In this document: positions 41,283 to 49,027 of the stretch, piece after piece
How positions within the stretch are numbered: position 1 is the first letter of the stretch
Layout: each line of letters starts with the position of its first letter
Assembly (NCBI GenBank): GCA_023248635.1
Contig: JAHFED010000017.1
Span: forward strand, 1-64,000
DNA: 64,000 nt
Origin: Myxococcales bacterium
Lineage (GTDB): Bacteria; Myxococcota; UBA727; VGSZ01
Direction: 5' to 3'
Made by a program: the position numbers and the translations under genes
The notes under the pieces: generated by a model
What the model was told of the DNA's origin: nothing
Database searches by the model: none
What the model saw: only the letters and a program-made list of their open reading frames with translations

Positions 41283-42916
<1,634 letters not shown>

Positions 42917-42940
42917 TCGTGGTCCCGATCTTCTGGTGGG

Positions 42941-45151
42941 TCAGCGCTCTCGGCGGTTGCCGCCGGCGACTTCGGAATTCGAAAAGAGCTTCAGCACGTA
43001 GCGGGCGCTCAGCTTCTGGGCGGCGCCGGCGTCGACCTTGAGGTGCCAGCGGCGACCGCCCAAGACGACGGCGTCGCGCTCTTCTTGGGTGTAGGCCTCC
43101 CAGGGGGGGCTGACGGCGCGTTCGTCGACCTGCACTTCGGCGCCGGCGACGGGCACGGGCACGCGCTCGCGCACCTCGATCTCGATGGGGCGGCCCAGGT
43201 GGTTGACGATGTCGATGTCGATGTCGTGGCAGAGCTCGACCATGGCGACGACGCCTTCGCCGGTGCGGGTTTCGGTGAAGCGCGCGTTGCGGGCGATTTT
43301 GATCGCCTGTTCGACGCCCAACCCGAGCTTGAGCTCGCCGCGCAGCGACACCGTCGGCAAGGCTGTGGTCAGCACGTAGTCGCCGCCGACGTAGACCTCC
43401 GCCGGTCCTGCCAACAGCGGCGCCGCGAGGGGATTTTGGATGACCGCGGTCCGGTACACGGCCAGCTCTTCGCGCGGCACTGACACGTAGCGCACCGAGG
43501 CTGCTCCCTCGCGCTCGCCCAGGGCCACCGAGTGGTAGCCGCCGTCGCCAGCGACGTCGACGACGCCGTCGGCCTCGTAGACGAAGTCGTAAAACGAGCT
43601 GAGGTCGTTCATGTCCACCGTCATCGGCGGCGGCGCGCTTCCGGCCTCCATGGCTTCGCGCTCGGCGCTTTGCACGGCCGAGAGCACATCGAAGGGCACG
43701 GGGCGGCCGAAGCGGGTCAGCGATTGCGTGTAGAGCGAGCGCAGATCGGCGGGCACCAGGCGTCCCCGCTGCGCTTCGGAGCCGCTGGGCAAGCGCAAGA
43801 GCGGAAAGACCATGGCGGCGACGACGTCGTCGACGCCGGCTGGAGCTTTGGCAGGCCGGCCTTTTGGGCTGGGCGCGCCCGGTGGGGGACCTGCTCCGGC
43901 CGACAGCCGGGCCATCGAGGGCATGGGCGCCATGGAGGGCGGCGGCGGCGGCGCCGGGGCGTCGTCGCTGTCCATCACCATCAGCTCGTCGCCGGCGTCG
44001 AAGGAGCCTTCGGCTGCGGGCAGCGCTTCCTGCATTGCCATGGTCTTGTTGGAGCGCGTGACAGCGTCCTTCACGTTCCTTCTCGCGGGCGGCGGCCGGG
44101 GGGCTTGGCGGTGGACGACGACGGGCGGCACCAGGTCGCCCAGCGGCGCTTCGAGAGGGGGCATATGCCACCCCCGCGGCGGCGGCACCGCGGCGCGCAC
44201 GCGGGTGCTTTCGCTGTCGAAATCGCGAAACAACACCTCACCACCGGCCGGAGGAGGACGAAAGCCCTTCTTCGTCGGCGCCGGCTGGGCCTTGCCGATG
44301 CGGATCGACGAGAGCTCGGGCAATTCGGTGAAGCGCAGCGGCAGCGCCGTCGACAAACGCAGCTTCACCCCCTTCCAGTCTTCACCGCTGCGCTGCGCGA
44401 TGTGGGCGCGGAGCTGGATCGACGCCGTGCTCCCGTCGCGTGCGAGCTTCACCTGGTAGGCAGGTGTCCATCGGGCTCCGGGGACGACGTAGGAGATTTC
44501 GACGACGACCTTCGAGGGACGCTCGCCCTCGCTCCGCAGACTGATCACAGCGGACTTGCTCAGGTCACCCTGGTGGACCTCGACGGCCGACGACGAAGCA
44601 GCGATTCGCTCCCGCTGTTTCTTGAGCTCTTCTTCGAGCTGGTGCAGCTCGGTGGCGAGGACCCGGCGCTCAGCACGCCGGCGCAGGGCAGCGTCGTCGG
44701 CAAACCCCTCGAGGGCCAGGCGCATGTGCAGCGGTGCGGGTGGGGGGGCCCGCCCTTCTTCGGCCATCGGGCGCTCCGGCACGGGGATGGCCTGCAAGAG
44801 AGCGATCTCGCTGTCGATCAGGCGCACCAGCTCTTGTTTGTCGCGCAGTTGCCGCTGGAGTGCGTCGACGAGCTTCTGCTCGGGGGCCACGGGCCGCTCC
44901 CCGCTCCCCCGCACATACAGACCCACTCGCACACCAGCCGCCGTCACAGACGACGACGACGGCTCGACGTCCAGCACGCGCACCTTCACGGTGGGATCGA
45001 GCAGCGCCAGCGGCAAACCCGGCAGCTCGATCTCTGCGGGCAGGCCTGAAGCGAGAGCGTCGCCGTCGACGAGGGCCCGCCGCACGACGGTGGCTCCGCG
45101 TCGGTACACCTGCACGGCCTGTATCTGCGAGGAAACGACGACGGCGGACAT
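42941..45151 (-). CDS. DUF4139 (MuiA-like) protein, paralog 2
   Basis: 736 residues; ATG 45151 has GGGAGG upstream. It starts VSSQIQAVQVYRRGATVVRRALVDGD, the DUF4140 region, and continues into a coiled coil (KLVDALQRQLRDKQELVRLIDSEIALLQ; LATELHQLEEELKKQRERI). DUF4139 opens with VVVEISYVVPGARWTPAYQVKLARDG and IAQRSGEDWKGVKLRLSTALPLR. A Pro/Met-rich insertion (~370-430, APAPPPPPSMAPMPSM) interrupts the domain. The end contains ELKLGLGVEQAIKIARNARFTETRTGEG. It is longer than the usual ~550-residue family member because of the insertion. It is the promoter-proximal partner of the 41283-42914 gene. Confidence 0.85.
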   Translation of the reverse strand: MSAVVVSSQIQAVQVYRRGATVVRRALVDGDALASGLPAEIELPGLPLALLDPTVKVRVLDVEPSSSSVTAAGVRVGLYVRGSGERPVAPEQKLVDALQRQLRDKQELVRLIDSEIALLQAIPVPERPMAEEGRAPPPAPLHMRLALEGFADDAALRRRAERRVLATELHQLEEELKKQRERIAASSSAVEVHQGDLSKSAVISLRSEGERPSKVVVEISYVVPGARWTPAYQVKLARDGSTASIQLRAHIAQRSGEDWKGVKLRLSTALPLRFTELPELSSIRIGKAQPAPTKKGFRPPPAGGEVLFRDFDSESTRVRAAVPPPRGWHMPPLEAPLGDLVPPVVVHRQAPRPPPARRNVKDAVTRSNKTMAMQEALPAAEGSFDAGDELMVMDSDDAPAPPPPPSMAPMPSMARLSAGAGPPPGAPSPKGRPAKAPAGVDDVVAAMVFPLLRLPSGSEAQRGRLVPADLRSLYTQSLTRFGRPVPFDVLSAVQSAEREAMEAGSAPPPMTVDMNDLSSFYDFVYEADGVVDVAGDGGYHSVALGEREGAASVRYVSVPREELAVYRTAVIQNPLAAPLLAGPAEVYVGGDYVLTTALPTVSLRGELKLGLGVEQAIKIARNARFTETRTGEGVVAMVELCHDIDIDIVNHLGRPIEIEVRERVPVPVAGAEVQVDERAVSPPWEAYTQEERDAVVLGGRRWHLKVDAGAAQKLSARYVLKLFSNSEVAGGNRRER

Positions 45152-45205
45152 CTGGCCTCCCGGGCAGCGGAGGGTCGTTCAGGTGTCCCCGCCGCCGCAA
45201 CTCAC

Positions 45206-45231
45206 AAAAAAAGCGGACCCGCAGGCCCGCT
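45206..45231 (-). terminator. Rho-independent terminator of the 45257-46204 gene
   Basis: On the minus strand: AGCGGGCC, loop TGCG, GGTCCGCT (8 bp including one G-U pair), then T7. It begins 26 nt after the stop of the Ala/Gly-rich gene and isolates it from the DUF4139 pair. Confidence 0.85.
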
Positions 45232-45256
45232 CTTTCCAAGGGAGACGAGACGAGGA

Positions 45257-46204
45257 CTACGTCGCCGCCGTGAGGCCCTGCTTCTCGAGGCGCCCCATGA
45301 TGCCGGTGAACTGCGCCAACAGCTTGGTGTCGTTTTCGGTGACGACGACCTTGCCCTGGTCGGGGAGGGCCAGCTTGTTGGCTGCCGACGCCGACAGCTT
45401 GGCGCCGATGACGGCCAGGTCGCGCAGGTCGCGGTTGGCGGCCTCGGTGAGATTGATGGCGCCCTTGGCCACCTCGCCCAGGATCCAGGCCCCGGCCGCG
45501 CGGGCCTCGTAGATTGCAGCGCCGAAGCCTTCGACGGCGGCGAGGCCTTCGAGGGCTCCGGTGGCCGCGAAGTGCCCCAACATCGCAGTGGTGTGGCCCA
45601 GGGCGTTGAGCGCGTTCTTGCCGCTGTCAGCGAGGTCGCCGATGGCGCCGACGTAGCTGGCCCAGGCCATGTTCATGCTGTCGGCAGACAGGTTCAGCTG
45701 CTTGGCGGCTTCGCCGAACATCTTCTTGGAGAAGCGGACGGCGTCGACGTCGCCGGCGAGCTCGCGCACGGTGTAGGTCTTGCCATCGAGGGCCTTCCCG
45801 AAAAAGGTGGCCAGCGCTGCAAAGGCTTCAGAGACGTTCTTGGCGACGAAGCGACCTCCAGCAGCCAGGCCTTCGACGACGAAGCCTGCGGACCCGGCGA
45901 CGGAGAAGCCCGCAGCCGCCCCGAGATGACCGCCCGCCGCCAGCGTGTCGCCGACGCCGGCCAAGACATTCACCGTGGCCGACAGGGCCTGGATGCCAGC
46001 CATGGCCGCGGTGTCGACGGCGGCGGCACCGTGCTCGAATCCGGCGGCGGCGTGCTCACCGGCTCCCTTGAGATCATCGAGAGCCGCTTTGCCGAGGTTC
46101 TTGGCCGTCGTCTGGAGCTGGTCGATTCGTTTCTCCTCGAGGGCACCGATCTTTTGGCGAGCACGGTCGTACACATTGCCATCGCGGGGCGGGATCTTCG
46201 TCAT
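45257..46204 (-). CDS. Ala/Gly-rich helical protein, paralog A of the SCP2 cluster
   Basis: 315 residues, family not recognised. It is clearly paralogous to the 46948-47919 product; shared blocks include AGGRFVAKNVS.AFAALAT, TVREL.GDV.AVRFS..MFG.AA.QLN, MNMAWASY and NRDLRDLAV..AKLSAS.ANKLALPDQGK.VVTE. The N-terminal ~60 residues are a charged amphipathic helix (QLQTTAKNLGKAALDDLKGAGEHAA). Residues 75-130 and 195-260 are weakly hydrophobic Ala/Gly helices without Cys, too polar for ordinary transmembrane helices but suited to lie on a membrane or lipid surface. There is no signal peptide. ATG 46204 has GAGG upstream. It is divergent from the SCP2 gene. Confidence 0.75.
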   Translation of the reverse strand: MTKIPPRDGNVYDRARQKIGALEEKRIDQLQTTAKNLGKAALDDLKGAGEHAAAGFEHGAAAVDTAAMAGIQALSATVNVLAGVGDTLAAGGHLGAAAGFSVAGSAGFVVEGLAAGGRFVAKNVSEAFAALATFFGKALDGKTYTVRELAGDVDAVRFSKKMFGEAAKQLNLSADSMNMAWASYVGAIGDLADSGKNALNALGHTTAMLGHFAATGALEGLAAVEGFGAAIYEARAAGAWILGEVAKGAINLTEAANRDLRDLAVIGAKLSASAANKLALPDQGKVVVTENDTKLLAQFTGIMGRLEKQGLTAAT

Positions 46205-46462
46205 GTGAACCTCGGAAGGGGAAACGGTCGCGCTTTCTACCGCGGCGGCCGGGGGTTTGGCTGGATCGCTGGAAGCAACTGGAAGGACGGTGTTTTCTGG
46301 GTGGCCAGCGGGGACGCTGCGCAGCGCCGGGCTTCGACGCCGTGGAGGGCAGGCGCCACTCGCGGGCTGGGACAATACACGCGCTGATCTCGCCAAGCTG
46401 CGGGCGAGCGGGCTAGAGGGAGCGGGTGCTGCTGGAGTTCCGCTGCACAAGAGGAGTCCGCG
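46205..46462. promoter_or_regulatory. Divergent intergenic region between paralog A and the SCP2 gene
   Basis: 258 nt with no gene seen. It must carry promoters in both directions; ACAATA at about 46372 is the best -10-like string on the plus strand, with no good -35. AGAGGAG near 46450 is the Shine-Dalgarno of the SCP2 gene. Confidence 0.35.
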
Positions 46463-46825
46463 ATGAACATGCGTCTCAAGACCGGCGAGCCCGAGTCGGT
46501 TTCTCCGTCCACCTTTTTCAACGATGTCTGCCCCAAGATCCTGAGCGCTCAGAAAGAAATCTGCGCGAAGATCGGCGGCACCTACGGCATCCAGCTCTTC
46601 GGCGACAAGGGCGGGGCATGGACGCTCGACTTCGCCACCGCCAAGATCGGCGCCGGCGTCGCTCCGAAGGTGGACTTCTACCTCGAGATGCAGGCCGCCG
46701 ACTTCGAGAACATGATGATGGGCAAGCTCGACGTCATTGGCTCGGCCAAAGACGGCAAGATCCGCTTCGAAGGCAACGCCAACATGTTCAACAACCTCGC
46801 CTCCGTGCTGCGGCCAGCCGGCTGA
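46463..46825 (+). CDS. SCP2 sterol-carrier-domain protein
   Basis: 120 residues, almost the whole protein being one SCP2 domain: FFNDVCPKILSAQKEICAKIGGTYGIQLFGDKGGAWTLDFATAKIG...VDFYLEMQAADFENMMMGKLDVIGSAKDGKIRFEGNANMFNNLASVL. This alternates the curved sheet and helices that make a hydrophobic tunnel for sterols or fatty acyl groups. It is cytoplasmic, with no signal. ATG 46463 has AGAGGAG about six bases upstream; the second ATG (residue 3) is possible. It is flanked on both sides by the two Ala/Gly-rich paralogs, one divergent and one downstream on the same strand, suggesting a joint lipid-related role. Confidence 0.88.
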   Translation: MNMRLKTGEPESVSPSTFFNDVCPKILSAQKEICAKIGGTYGIQLFGDKGGAWTLDFATAKIGAGVAPKVDFYLEMQAADFENMMMGKLDVIGSAKDGKIRFEGNANMFNNLASVLRPAG

Positions 46826-46865
46826 GACTGCGTCGCTGGCGCCCCGAGCCAGCAGCCCTGGCCAA

Positions 46866-46888
46866 TTGGCCGCCCGGCCCACAGAATT
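46866..46888. repeat. Partial third copy of the GGCCGCCCGGCC element
   Basis: TTGGCCGCCCGGCC at 46866-46879, then CACAGAATT to 46888. It has the same palindromic core and the same AGAATT end as the 30-nt repeat, but six bases are missing between them. It lies 59 nt upstream of paralog B. Confidence 0.6.
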
Positions 46889-46947
46889 TTCGCCCGTCTG
46901 ACCTCACCGAGGGCGGGCTCAACAACGAACCCAACACCAGGATTCCC

Positions 46948-47919
46948 ATGTCGAACACCATCGGACCCAAGACTCCCAACAGCTACGACCGCGCCCGCGC
47001 CAACGTCGACGCCACCACCGACAAGGCCGCCGGCGCCCTGCGGGACACGGCCAAAGACCTCCACGACGGCGCCAAAAACCTGATCGACGGCGCCGCTCAG
47101 GACCTGAACAAGGCCGGCAACCACGCGAGCTTGGCGGTGGGACACACCCTGGCCGCCGGCGCCAACGCCATCATGGCCACCGCTGACGTCCTCGTCGGCA
47201 CCGCTGACGTCGTCGTCGCTGGGGGTCACACGGCCGCCGCCGGCGCGCTCGGCCTCGCCGGGTCCGCAGGCTGGGTCGCAGAAGGTGTCTTGGCCGGCGG
47301 TCGCTTCGTCGCCAAGAACGTGTCGGCGGCCTTTGCCGCTCTGGCCACGGCCCTGTCTGGGCCCCTCGGCGACAGCAAGACGTGGACGGTTCGCGAGCTC
47401 AAGGGCGACGTCAACGCGGTGCGCTTCTCCGACGAGATGTTCGGCAAGGCCGCGGGCCAGCTGAACAAGGCCGGCGACGCCATGAACATGGCCTGGGCGA
47501 GCTACGCCAACGCCGTCACCGACCTCGCCTACACCGGCGCTCACGCCATCGTCGCGGTCGGCTACGCGGGCGCCGTCGCTGTCAACCTCACCACCGCTGC
47601 TGGCAAGGGCGCTCTCGCAGCCACCGGCGTCGTCGGCGAAGGCCTGCTGCGCGCCGGTGCTGTGGGTGTGGAGCTCGCTGGTGCCGTCGCCAAGGGCGCC
47701 ATCTCTCTGACCGAAGAAGCCAACCGCGACCTGCGCGATCTCGCGGTGGTCACGGCCAAGCTCTCGGCCAGCGTCGCCAACAAGCTTGCGCTGCCGGATC
47801 AAGGCAAGATCGTCGTCACCGAAGGCGAAGACAAGATGCTCAAGCAGCTCAACGACACGTTGAACCGCTTGAACAAGGCCGGGCTCGGTCAGCACTCCGC
47901 CACCCTCGCCGCGGCCTGA
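46948..47919 (+). CDS. Ala/Gly-rich helical protein, paralog B of the SCP2 cluster
   Basis: 323 residues, paralogous to the 45257-46204 product over its whole length (see that entry for shared blocks). The N-terminal 70 residues repeat an 11-residue-like amphipathic pattern rich in Lys/Asp/Ala (DKAAGALRDTAKDLHDGAKNLIDGAAQDLNKAGNHA) similar to LEA, phasin or apolipoprotein helices. Several Ala/Gly/Val-rich helices (AIVAVGYAGAVAVNLTTAAGKGALAATGVV) follow. The C-terminal motif NRDLRDLAVVTAKLSASVANKLALPDQGKIVVTE is the best conserved. ATG 46948 has AGGA upstream. It ends with a clear terminator, so SCP2 plus paralog B form a two-gene unit. Function unknown; a lipid-body coat is one possibility. 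Confidence 0.75.
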   Translation: MSNTIGPKTPNSYDRARANVDATTDKAAGALRDTAKDLHDGAKNLIDGAAQDLNKAGNHASLAVGHTLAAGANAIMATADVLVGTADVVVAGGHTAAAGALGLAGSAGWVAEGVLAGGRFVAKNVSAAFAALATALSGPLGDSKTWTVRELKGDVNAVRFSDEMFGKAAGQLNKAGDAMNMAWASYANAVTDLAYTGAHAIVAVGYAGAVAVNLTTAAGKGALAATGVVGEGLLRAGAVGVELAGAVAKGAISLTEEANRDLRDLAVVTAKLSASVANKLALPDQGKIVVTEGEDKMLKQLNDTLNRLNKAGLGQHSATLAAA

Positions 47920-47943
47920 GCTGCTGCACTGCTTTGGTGAAAG

Positions 47944-47965
47944 AGGCCCCGCGAGGGGCCTTTTT
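47944..47965 (+). terminator. Rho-independent terminator of paralog B
   Basis: AGGCCCC, loop GCGA, GGGGCCT followed by T4; starts 25 nt after the stop. Confidence 0.88.
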
Positions 47966-48078
47966 CATGGATCGCGACCGTCCTCGGCCAGGGATCGGAG
48001 GATTACGCACAGCGGCAAGAAACCGAGCCAAAGGGGCACCGTCGTCGATAGAATGTCGGTCAAGGAGTCGAGCAGCCC

Positions 48079-48609
48079 GTGAGCACCTTCGGACCCAAAG
48101 GCCCCAAAGGCACCACCGATCCCCGGCTGAGCCTCGGGAAGGTCCTGCTCTTGCGCCAGCAGCAGGTCGAAAAGGCCGAAAAAGCCGAAAAAGCCGAAAA
48201 AGCCGAAAAAGCGGAGAAGCTCGAGGCCGAGACGACGACGACGGCGAAGCCCGCTGATGCTTCGGCTCTGTTCGAGGGATCCACGGGCACCTCACAGACC
48301 CTCGCGACTCCCGTCGAAGGCGCTCGTGCCAGTCAGGTGCTCGTGCGCTTGAGGGGTGCCGAGGGCAAAAAGCTCACCAAGACCGCCGAAACGGGACCCC
48401 GCGTCGTCGACACCAGCGAGGGTAAGGTGATGTCGGGCTCCGTGAGCATTGAGTCGCGCAGCGGGCTGCAGAAGCTCGAAGGCGTCGTCCGCGTCGGCGG
48501 CGACCTGACCATTCACGAGGGCGTGCTCAAGAACACCGATTTGCTGGCTCTGAAGACGCTGAAGTTGGTGGAGCGACGGCTGACCTTCGAGGGCCTCTCC
48601 GCATCGTGA
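48079..48609 (+). CDS. Hypothetical protein with EKA repeat and L-domain-like end
   Basis: 176 residues from GTG 48079 (AAGGAG upstream). The N-terminus is MSTFGPKGPKGTTDP. Residues ~30-50 are the charged repeat EKAEKAEKAEKAEKAEK, encoded by a 9-nt tandem repeat, likely one long helix. The C-terminal ~75 residues (VMSGSVSIESRSGLQKLEGVVRVGGDLTIHEGVLKNTDLLALKTLKLVERRLTF) match the strand pattern of receptor-L/leucine-rich-like domains and resemble the next gene's product. No signal peptide. Probably a pair with the 48638 gene; role unknown. Confidence 0.65.
   Translation: MSTFGPKGPKGTTDPRLSLGKVLLLRQQQVEKAEKAEKAEKAEKAEKLEAETTTTAKPADASALFEGSTGTSQTLATPVEGARASQVLVRLRGAEGKKLTKTAETGPRVVDTSEGKVMSGSVSIESRSGLQKLEGVVRVGGDLTIHEGVLKNTDLLALKTLKLVERRLTFEGLSAS
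48166..48219 (+). repeat. Six 9-nt tandem units inside the 48079 gene
   Basis: Period-9 repeat with four perfect GCCGAAAAA units (48175-48210), preceded by GTCGAAAAG and followed by GCGGAGAAG. It encodes EKA repeats and contains A5 runs that could favour slippage in multiples of the unit, which would keep frame. Confidence 0.92.
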
Positions 48610-48637
48610 GTTGGCTGGTTGTGCTAGGGCTCGCCCT

Positions 48638-49027
48638 ATGGGTTTGACCCTCGACCAGGCCACCGAGCTCGAGCACGTGGGCGACACGCTCTACATCGGC
48701 TTCAACGACGATCTGGAGAAGGTGAGCTTTCCCAAGCTCCGCACCGTCGGCGGCGCCTTGATCATCGAGGCCAATGGCGCCCTGAAAGAGATCCATCTGC
48801 CGGCCCTCGAGCGGGTTACCAAATACCTTCACATCCACGACAACGGCAGCCTGGCCGTCGTCGAGCTGCCGAAGCTGCGCGAGGTGGGCGCCGAGCTCTC
48901 GCTGGCGAAATGCCCCGCGCTGGTCCAGCTGCGCGTCGCCACGGCGGCGTCGCCCGCGAAGGCCGCCAAGCTCGAGATCAAGGGGTGCGCGATGCCGGCT
49001 TATCCGGCGGCTCACGTTCGCGCCTAG
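48638..49027 (+). CDS. Receptor-L-domain-like small protein
   Basis: 129 residues from ATG 48638. A strand ladder LEHVGDTLYIGFNDDLEKVSFPKLRTVGGALIIEANGALKEIHLPALERVTKYLHIHDNGSLAVVELPKL has the 'L..VGG.L.I..N..L..I..P.L' periodicity of receptor-L domains. It has no signal peptide, so a cytoplasmic scaffold is more likely than a surface receptor. The start codon lies in an inverted repeat TAGGGC-TC-GCCCTA (48625-48638) and lacks a Shine-Dalgarno. It begins 28 nt after the related 48079 gene; its stop is directly followed by the 62-nt repeats. Confidence 0.72.
   Translation: MGLTLDQATELEHVGDTLYIGFNDDLEKVSFPKLRTVGGALIIEANGALKEIHLPALERVTKYLHIHDNGSLAVVELPKLREVGAELSLAKCPALVQLRVATAASPAKAAKLEIKGCAMPAYPAAHVRA

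Follow-up and report, generated by a model that had tools for sequence, protein, structure and literature searches.

SCP2 domains are lipid carriers, and phasins, PhaE and apolipoproteins are helical proteins active at the surface of lipid or polymer inclusions. An SCP2-like protein, StkB, and a PhaE-like one, StkC, are encoded together in Myxococcus xanthus, and deletion of stkB or stkC lowers exopolysaccharide by about 50% or 25%, respectively (PMC4319316). By its layout, in which a gene of the SCP2 superfamily is followed within about 20 bp by the gene of a small protein, this pair from the same phylum appears to be the nearest precedent, as an analogue, of the cluster described here. However, StkB is a remote SCP2 that falls below the Pfam cut-off, whereas the SCP2 protein of our cluster (P0003) lies above it, and StkC (89-94 aa, not Ala/Gly-rich) is set apart by length and composition from our much longer helical proteins. 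The stk locus is also preceded by an Hsp70 gene, whereas none adjoins our cluster among the called genes inspected, and the stkABC order (Hsp70, SCP2-like, StkC) is not found there. That stkA-stkB-stkC order is conserved at L115, L118 and L116 (G122, G137 and G077), that is, in three genomes of two genera.

The helical proteins themselves invite comparison with perilipin-4 (Plin4) and alpha-synuclein, with which they share a very long weak amphipathic helix, a nonpolar face of small residues and internal repetition. Their contents of aromatic (2-6%) and charged (15-21%) residues are near the values for alpha-synuclein and Plin4 helices in Table 1 of PMC5889406. On the other hand, the hydrophobic fraction of Plin4 (0.35) is below the 0.42-0.53 of our family, and the repeats of perilipin and synuclein are 11- or 33-mers, whereas two units of ~145 aa are seen here; the family is bacterial and paired with SCP2, and no sequence relation was seen. 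The cluster would pair a lipid carrier with a surface-active helical protein, a kind of pairing already known. Our preferred reading, held tentatively and at somewhat under an even chance, is that its genes specify a cytosolic lipid-handling system of two components, an SCP2 carrier and, working with it, an amphipathic scaffold that would either coat a lipid surface or keep lipid in solution.

The cluster and its surroundings

The window, that is, the whole stretch of DNA analysed, comprises 64,000 nucleotides of a Myxococcales bacterium (contig JAHFED010000017.1). Within it, the unit 45203-47972 is bounded by two terminator-like hairpins and holds three genes, with the following features.

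45203-45243, minus strand: intrinsic terminator after P0001, 14-pair hairpin with a T-rich 3' arm (-21.5 kcal/mol, z -4.1)
45257-46204, minus strand: P0001, helical amphipathic protein of 315 aa, paralogous to P0002 and transcribed divergently from it
46205-46462, no strand: divergent intergenic region of 258 bp, where the gene layout would place the promoters for P0001 on one side and for the SCP2-P0002 pair on the other
46463-46825, plus strand: P0003, SCP2-domain protein of 120 aa (Pfam SCP2, PF02036)
46948-47919, plus strand: P0002, helical amphipathic protein of 323 aa, its gene separated by 122 bp from the co-oriented SCP2 gene upstream
46948-47406, plus strand: putative repeat unit 1 of P0002 (residues 1-153), from profile-profile comparison of N-half and C-half
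47407-47916, plus strand: putative repeat unit 2 of P0002 (residues 154-323), from the same comparison
47934-47972, plus strand: intrinsic terminator after P0002, 14-pair core hairpin with a T-rich 3' arm (-27.1 kcal/mol, z -6.7)

All three genes have their best codon-usage score in the called frame and, by eye, a plausible ribosome-binding site. A sequence-only reading of the window had described two paralogs with an SCP2 gene between them, and this description was borne out in its coordinates, strands and frames: P0001 and P0002 are alike over their full length (52% identity over 309-316 residues, E 9e-77 to 2e-85, or about 1e-80), and the gene between them encodes a true SCP2 domain. The two are sisters in the family tree (100/100 support), and P0001, the divergent upstream copy, is a lineage-specific duplicate. 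They are the only family members in the window genome (6.5 Mb, 135 contigs), where a third match, at E 0.14, is not credible; one other SCP2 gene lies on a separate contig. P0003 matches the Pfam SCP2 model with E 9.2e-12 and 45.6 bits (curated cut-off 21.3), resembles SCP2 and non-specific lipid-transfer chains in the PDB at E 3e-4, and is presumed to be a cytosolic lipid carrier. Its gene has the highest codon adaptation of the 46 in the window, which was not taken as evidence of expression.

Both hairpins were found by reading and folding the sequence, a simple pattern scan having listed neither, and the divergent intergenic region contains no match to the sigma-70 consensus. Beyond the hairpin that follows P0001, two tandem genes occupy 41283-45151 on the minus strand, one of which (42941-45151) encodes DUF4139/DUF4140 domains. 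An operon of P0001 with these genes was considered and rejected, as they are separated from it by a strong terminator-like hairpin and as the DUF4139 pair is kept, at 54-64% identity and without the cluster, in one genome of the same genus (G186) and one of the same family (G184); the cassette therefore appears to have its own history. On the other side, two adjacent plus-strand ORFs in different frames lie at 48079-49027, the first with KAEKAEK repeats (about 48165-48220) and the second with a 61% match in G185; they are possibly one gene split by a frameshift.

Pairing with SCP2 across the Myxococcota

Relatives of the helical proteins were sought in 195 Myxococcota genomes, of which 9 were positive in a single-sequence search and 11 with a 12-sequence profile (E 1e-26 for the best match of the weakest genome); a refined profile returned the identical 11 genomes plus a few weak matches. 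The 11 represent 10 genera and 8 families, and both remaining genomes of the genus to which the window belongs lack the family. Every one of them carries a helical gene that is directly preceded by a co-oriented SCP2 gene, at distances of 122 (the window), 36, 56, 64, 2, 43, 54, 40, 25, 138 and 56 bp. The pair is genuine and conserved, and by gene-neighbourhood survey the association with SCP2 first noticed in the window holds in all genomes with the family. The paralogs had also been described as flanking the SCP2 gene, which is true of the window genome; elsewhere the order is SCP2 and then one or two helical genes on the same strand. A second helical copy is found at the SCP2 locus in four genomes (G000, G103, G109 and G183), that of the window being divergent and upstream. 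Further copies lacking an adjacent SCP2 gene occur in G147 (214 aa, of divergent composition) and G011, both of which also have the full pair. In a twelfth genome, G194, a partner-like SCP2 gene lies at a contig end, where a neighbour would be missing.

As SCP2 genes are present in 176 of the 195 genomes, chance linkage needed testing. As controls, 20 additional SCP2 loci were examined, of which L153 (no gene calling) and L146 (no SCP2 called) dropped out. The 18 with a called SCP2 gene have other neighbours, and neither a family member nor a strongly coherent helical protein stood directly downstream (top coherence 7.8). Distances among partner SCP2s and among helical proteins are correlated over the 11 loci (Mantel r 0.63, p 0.0002), which may partly reflect shared descent, since distances of partner and housekeeping SCP2s likewise correlate.

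Housekeeping SCP2 genes often adjoin a gene that we take, from its sequence, to encode a CaiB/BaiF-like CoA-transferase. These SCP2s share the Pfam domain and a similar size with the partner SCP2s, but they form a clade of their own (99/96 support) in another gene context, with every partner SCP2, P0003 included, outside it. In the SCP2 tree, the partner SCP2s are a group separate from the housekeeping ones; they require three changes and their inner support is weak, and they are not one demonstrated clade. A second SCP2 subfamily (100/97 support) was observed at L016:7559-8894 (G192) and L077:2289-3786 (G193), each SCP2 gene being followed by that of a helical protein, with 100-degree coherence of 10.0 and 15.9. 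By BLAST no relation between these two proteins was detected, and by profile none to the window family; the pairing of SCP2 with amphipathic proteins has perhaps arisen more than once. Other SCP2 genes stand directly before uncharacterised proteins of 280-408 aa (L148:1175-2370, L155:1341-2571, L156:407-1770 and L147:509-2109), a possible further SCP2-partner arrangement.

The patchy occurrence of the SCP2-helical cassette suggests gain and loss. No clean empty insertion site was found in relatives, whose neighbourhoods differ. Plasmid and viral collections gave no relatives of the helical family, and strict-pattern scans of wider genome contigs returned only two genomes, both already among the known positives. 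A weak match to the family profile (E 1.7e-6) was given by an Ala-rich amphipathic protein of G104 (L110, 6407-7108) whose start resembles a signal peptide and whose 10-kb region holds no SCP2 gene; it was rejected as a family member, its likeness being judged probably compositional or convergent.

Architecture of the helical proteins

Member by member against Pfam, NCBIfam, PHROGs, PADLOC and PDB sequences, and also by profile against the PDB, the helical proteins gave matches at chance level only, the best being PADLOC LeoBC at E 0.007 with P0001 alone, and identity with a known family was rejected accordingly. They would constitute a family not described before, made up of long amphipathic proteins with two units; a confident match to an unrelated family was sought and none was obtained.

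When profiles of the N- and C-terminal halves of the family were compared, they were colinear over 117-127 columns with a score of 49.5 (E 1e-7 to 4e-9), whereas reversed profiles reached no more than 25.2 and thirty block-shuffled ones averaged 22.5 with a maximum of 31.8. With the half-profile score of about 49 set against at most 31.8 in these controls, the helical protein most plausibly arose by internal duplication of a ~145-residue unit, and it has a short central hinge that carries the motif GD.K..TVREL.GDP.AKRFS..MF. A stress or desiccation protectant of the LEA kind, for which the SCP2 link would reflect general membrane protection, might share the Ala-rich, low-complexity, cysteine-poor helices and the lack of a convincing fold. 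Yet no LEA family match was obtained among the helical proteins, and a specific upstream partner retained together with a conserved hinge motif is more specific than would be expected of such a protectant, which we regard as highly improbable.

The hydrophobic residues recur with a period of 98.5-101.7 degrees per residue across the family, mostly 99-101, and the power of this signal is 16-24 in 12 of 17 members, compared with a mean of about 6 after shuffling and a 95th percentile of 8.3 among 99 other genes from the same loci. P0002 peaks at 99.9 degrees (power 21.5, shuffles at most 9.9) and P0001 at 100.4 degrees, whereas the 11-mer (3-11) helices of perilipin and synuclein correspond to 98.2 degrees, and no 11-residue repeat of that type is seen in the family. 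The hydrophobic phase is roughly kept inside each half and jumps at the central hinge in several members, so that the stripe makes two arms and not one. Its nonpolar face consists of Ala, Gly, Leu and Val, and Lys, Glu, Asn, Arg, Gln and Asp abound on the polar one. The sequence-only reading had noted amphipathic helices at the N-terminus; this weakly hydrophobic amphipathic character in fact runs along the whole protein, with a mean 33-residue moment of 0.18-0.29 among the members.

AlphaFold2 models of P0002 and one more central member contain essentially only helices, at a mean pLDDT of 55, and a Foldseek search with the low-confidence P0002 model returned nothing at E under 0.5. The modelling that had been advised upheld, for P0002, the helical nature of the protein, at low confidence and with no fold neighbour. 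As the input alignment was shallow (16-17 sequences), the low pLDDT and empty Foldseek result are no evidence for disorder or for a new fold, and a compact soluble bundle remains compatible with both. Such an Ala/Gly-packed bundle or rod would serve as an adaptor, chaperone or oligomeric holder for SCP2 and make no contact with lipid. The inner face would suit it, being Ala/Gly-rich with few large hydrophobics: at its centre, the nonpolar face has close to one half Ala and Gly and only about 31% large aliphatics and Phe, which also fits tight helix-helix packing. The net charge near zero and the C-terminal helices of the P0002 model (residues about 250-310, pLDDT 72-87) point the same way. However, the periodicity is closer to 100 degrees than to the 102.9 of heptad coiled coils and no solved bundle was matched by profile or by fold, and we consider a soluble bundle unlikely, if the most serious competitor to a lipid-bound scaffold.

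Hydropathy bears on another alternative, a membrane-inserted glycine-zipper oligomer or pore to which SCP2 would supply lipid or be linked as a cofactor. The Gly/Ala-rich stretches could be so interpreted, with a mean hydropathy that reaches 1.99 over 19 residues in the highest member (L022). Yet in 12 of 17 members no stretch of 19 residues exceeds 1.6 on the Kyte-Doolittle scale, in line with the earlier remark that the Ala/Gly helices are too polar for membrane spans. The best window is 1.48 in P0001, which has none above 1.6, and 1.63 in P0002, which has only two and passes barely, so that hydrophobic spans of ~19 residues expected of a transmembrane protein or pore are not what was found. 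Charged residues recur throughout, and no hydrophobic signal peptide is seen in P0001 or P0002, again as first read. Such a pore is very unlikely.

A proposed carrier and scaffold for cytosolic lipid

A lipid-droplet, storage-granule or internal-membrane system had been suggested for the cluster; in the storage version the helical protein would coat an inclusion of triacylglycerol, wax ester or PHA and SCP2 would shuttle its lipid. The likeness to Plin4 and similar giant, weakly amphipathic helices speaks for this, as does the occurrence of lipid bodies in Myxococcus xanthus (PMC4048283). The gene content does not agree with it. WS/DGAT (PF03007), the enzyme sought among the routes to triacylglycerol, is found in none of the 11 positive genomes and in 6 of 24 family-negative genomes, the latter hand-picked and not random. 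A strong PhaC_N match is present in 1 of the 11 positive genomes (G011), and the window genome gave no PhaC_N match. Phasin and perilipin models gave no match (E 0.23 for one member with a phasin-related NCBIfam model), and the 11-mer pitch is absent; the family thus differs from phasins, PhaE and apolipoproteins in having no family match and from the PHA-associated ones in that PHA synthase is mostly absent from its genomes. The storage version is therefore disfavoured, although genome evidence of this kind is not final, and we judge it quite unlikely; an internal-membrane or lipid-particle role may still apply.

We return to an SCP2 carrier with an amphipathic scaffold, the most economical model, which is supported by the SCP2 linkage in 11 of 11 genomes and its controls, the periodicity of ~100 degrees, the alpha-synuclein/Plin4-like composition, the all-helix AlphaFold2 models and the Mantel correlation. 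According to this model, the SCP2 protein would be a soluble carrier whose pocket takes an apolar ligand, which might be fatty acyl, sterol-like or hopanoid-like. The helical protein would form a scaffold of two homologous amphipathic units, with its weakly hydrophobic, small-residue face lying on a lipid surface, for which the inner-membrane leaflet, a vesicle or a lipid particle are candidates; alternatively, it might wrap lipid as an apolipoprotein does, through many weak contacts. The SCP2 protein would then load or unload lipid at the scaffold-coated surface. Lipid binding by either protein, the contact between them, the identity of lipid and surface, and the direction of transfer are here what we infer. 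A more specific version, doubtful though not far-fetched, would be a bacterial apolipoprotein-like system in which a dedicated SCP2 charges the two-unit scaffold, and the scaffold makes up or covers a lipid particle or a membrane domain with no part in triacylglycerol or PHA storage, encoded by a small cassette spread among Myxococcota.

SCP2 proteins are common in Myxococcota, yet the partners of most bacterial SCP2s are unknown, and the SCP2-helical pair makes bacterial SCP2 function directly testable. If the carrier and scaffold model is true, two or three genes would provide a small, defined system in which lipid trafficking within bacterial cells could be tested, and the helical family would be an independent evolutionary answer to the recognition of lipid surfaces by weak long helices.
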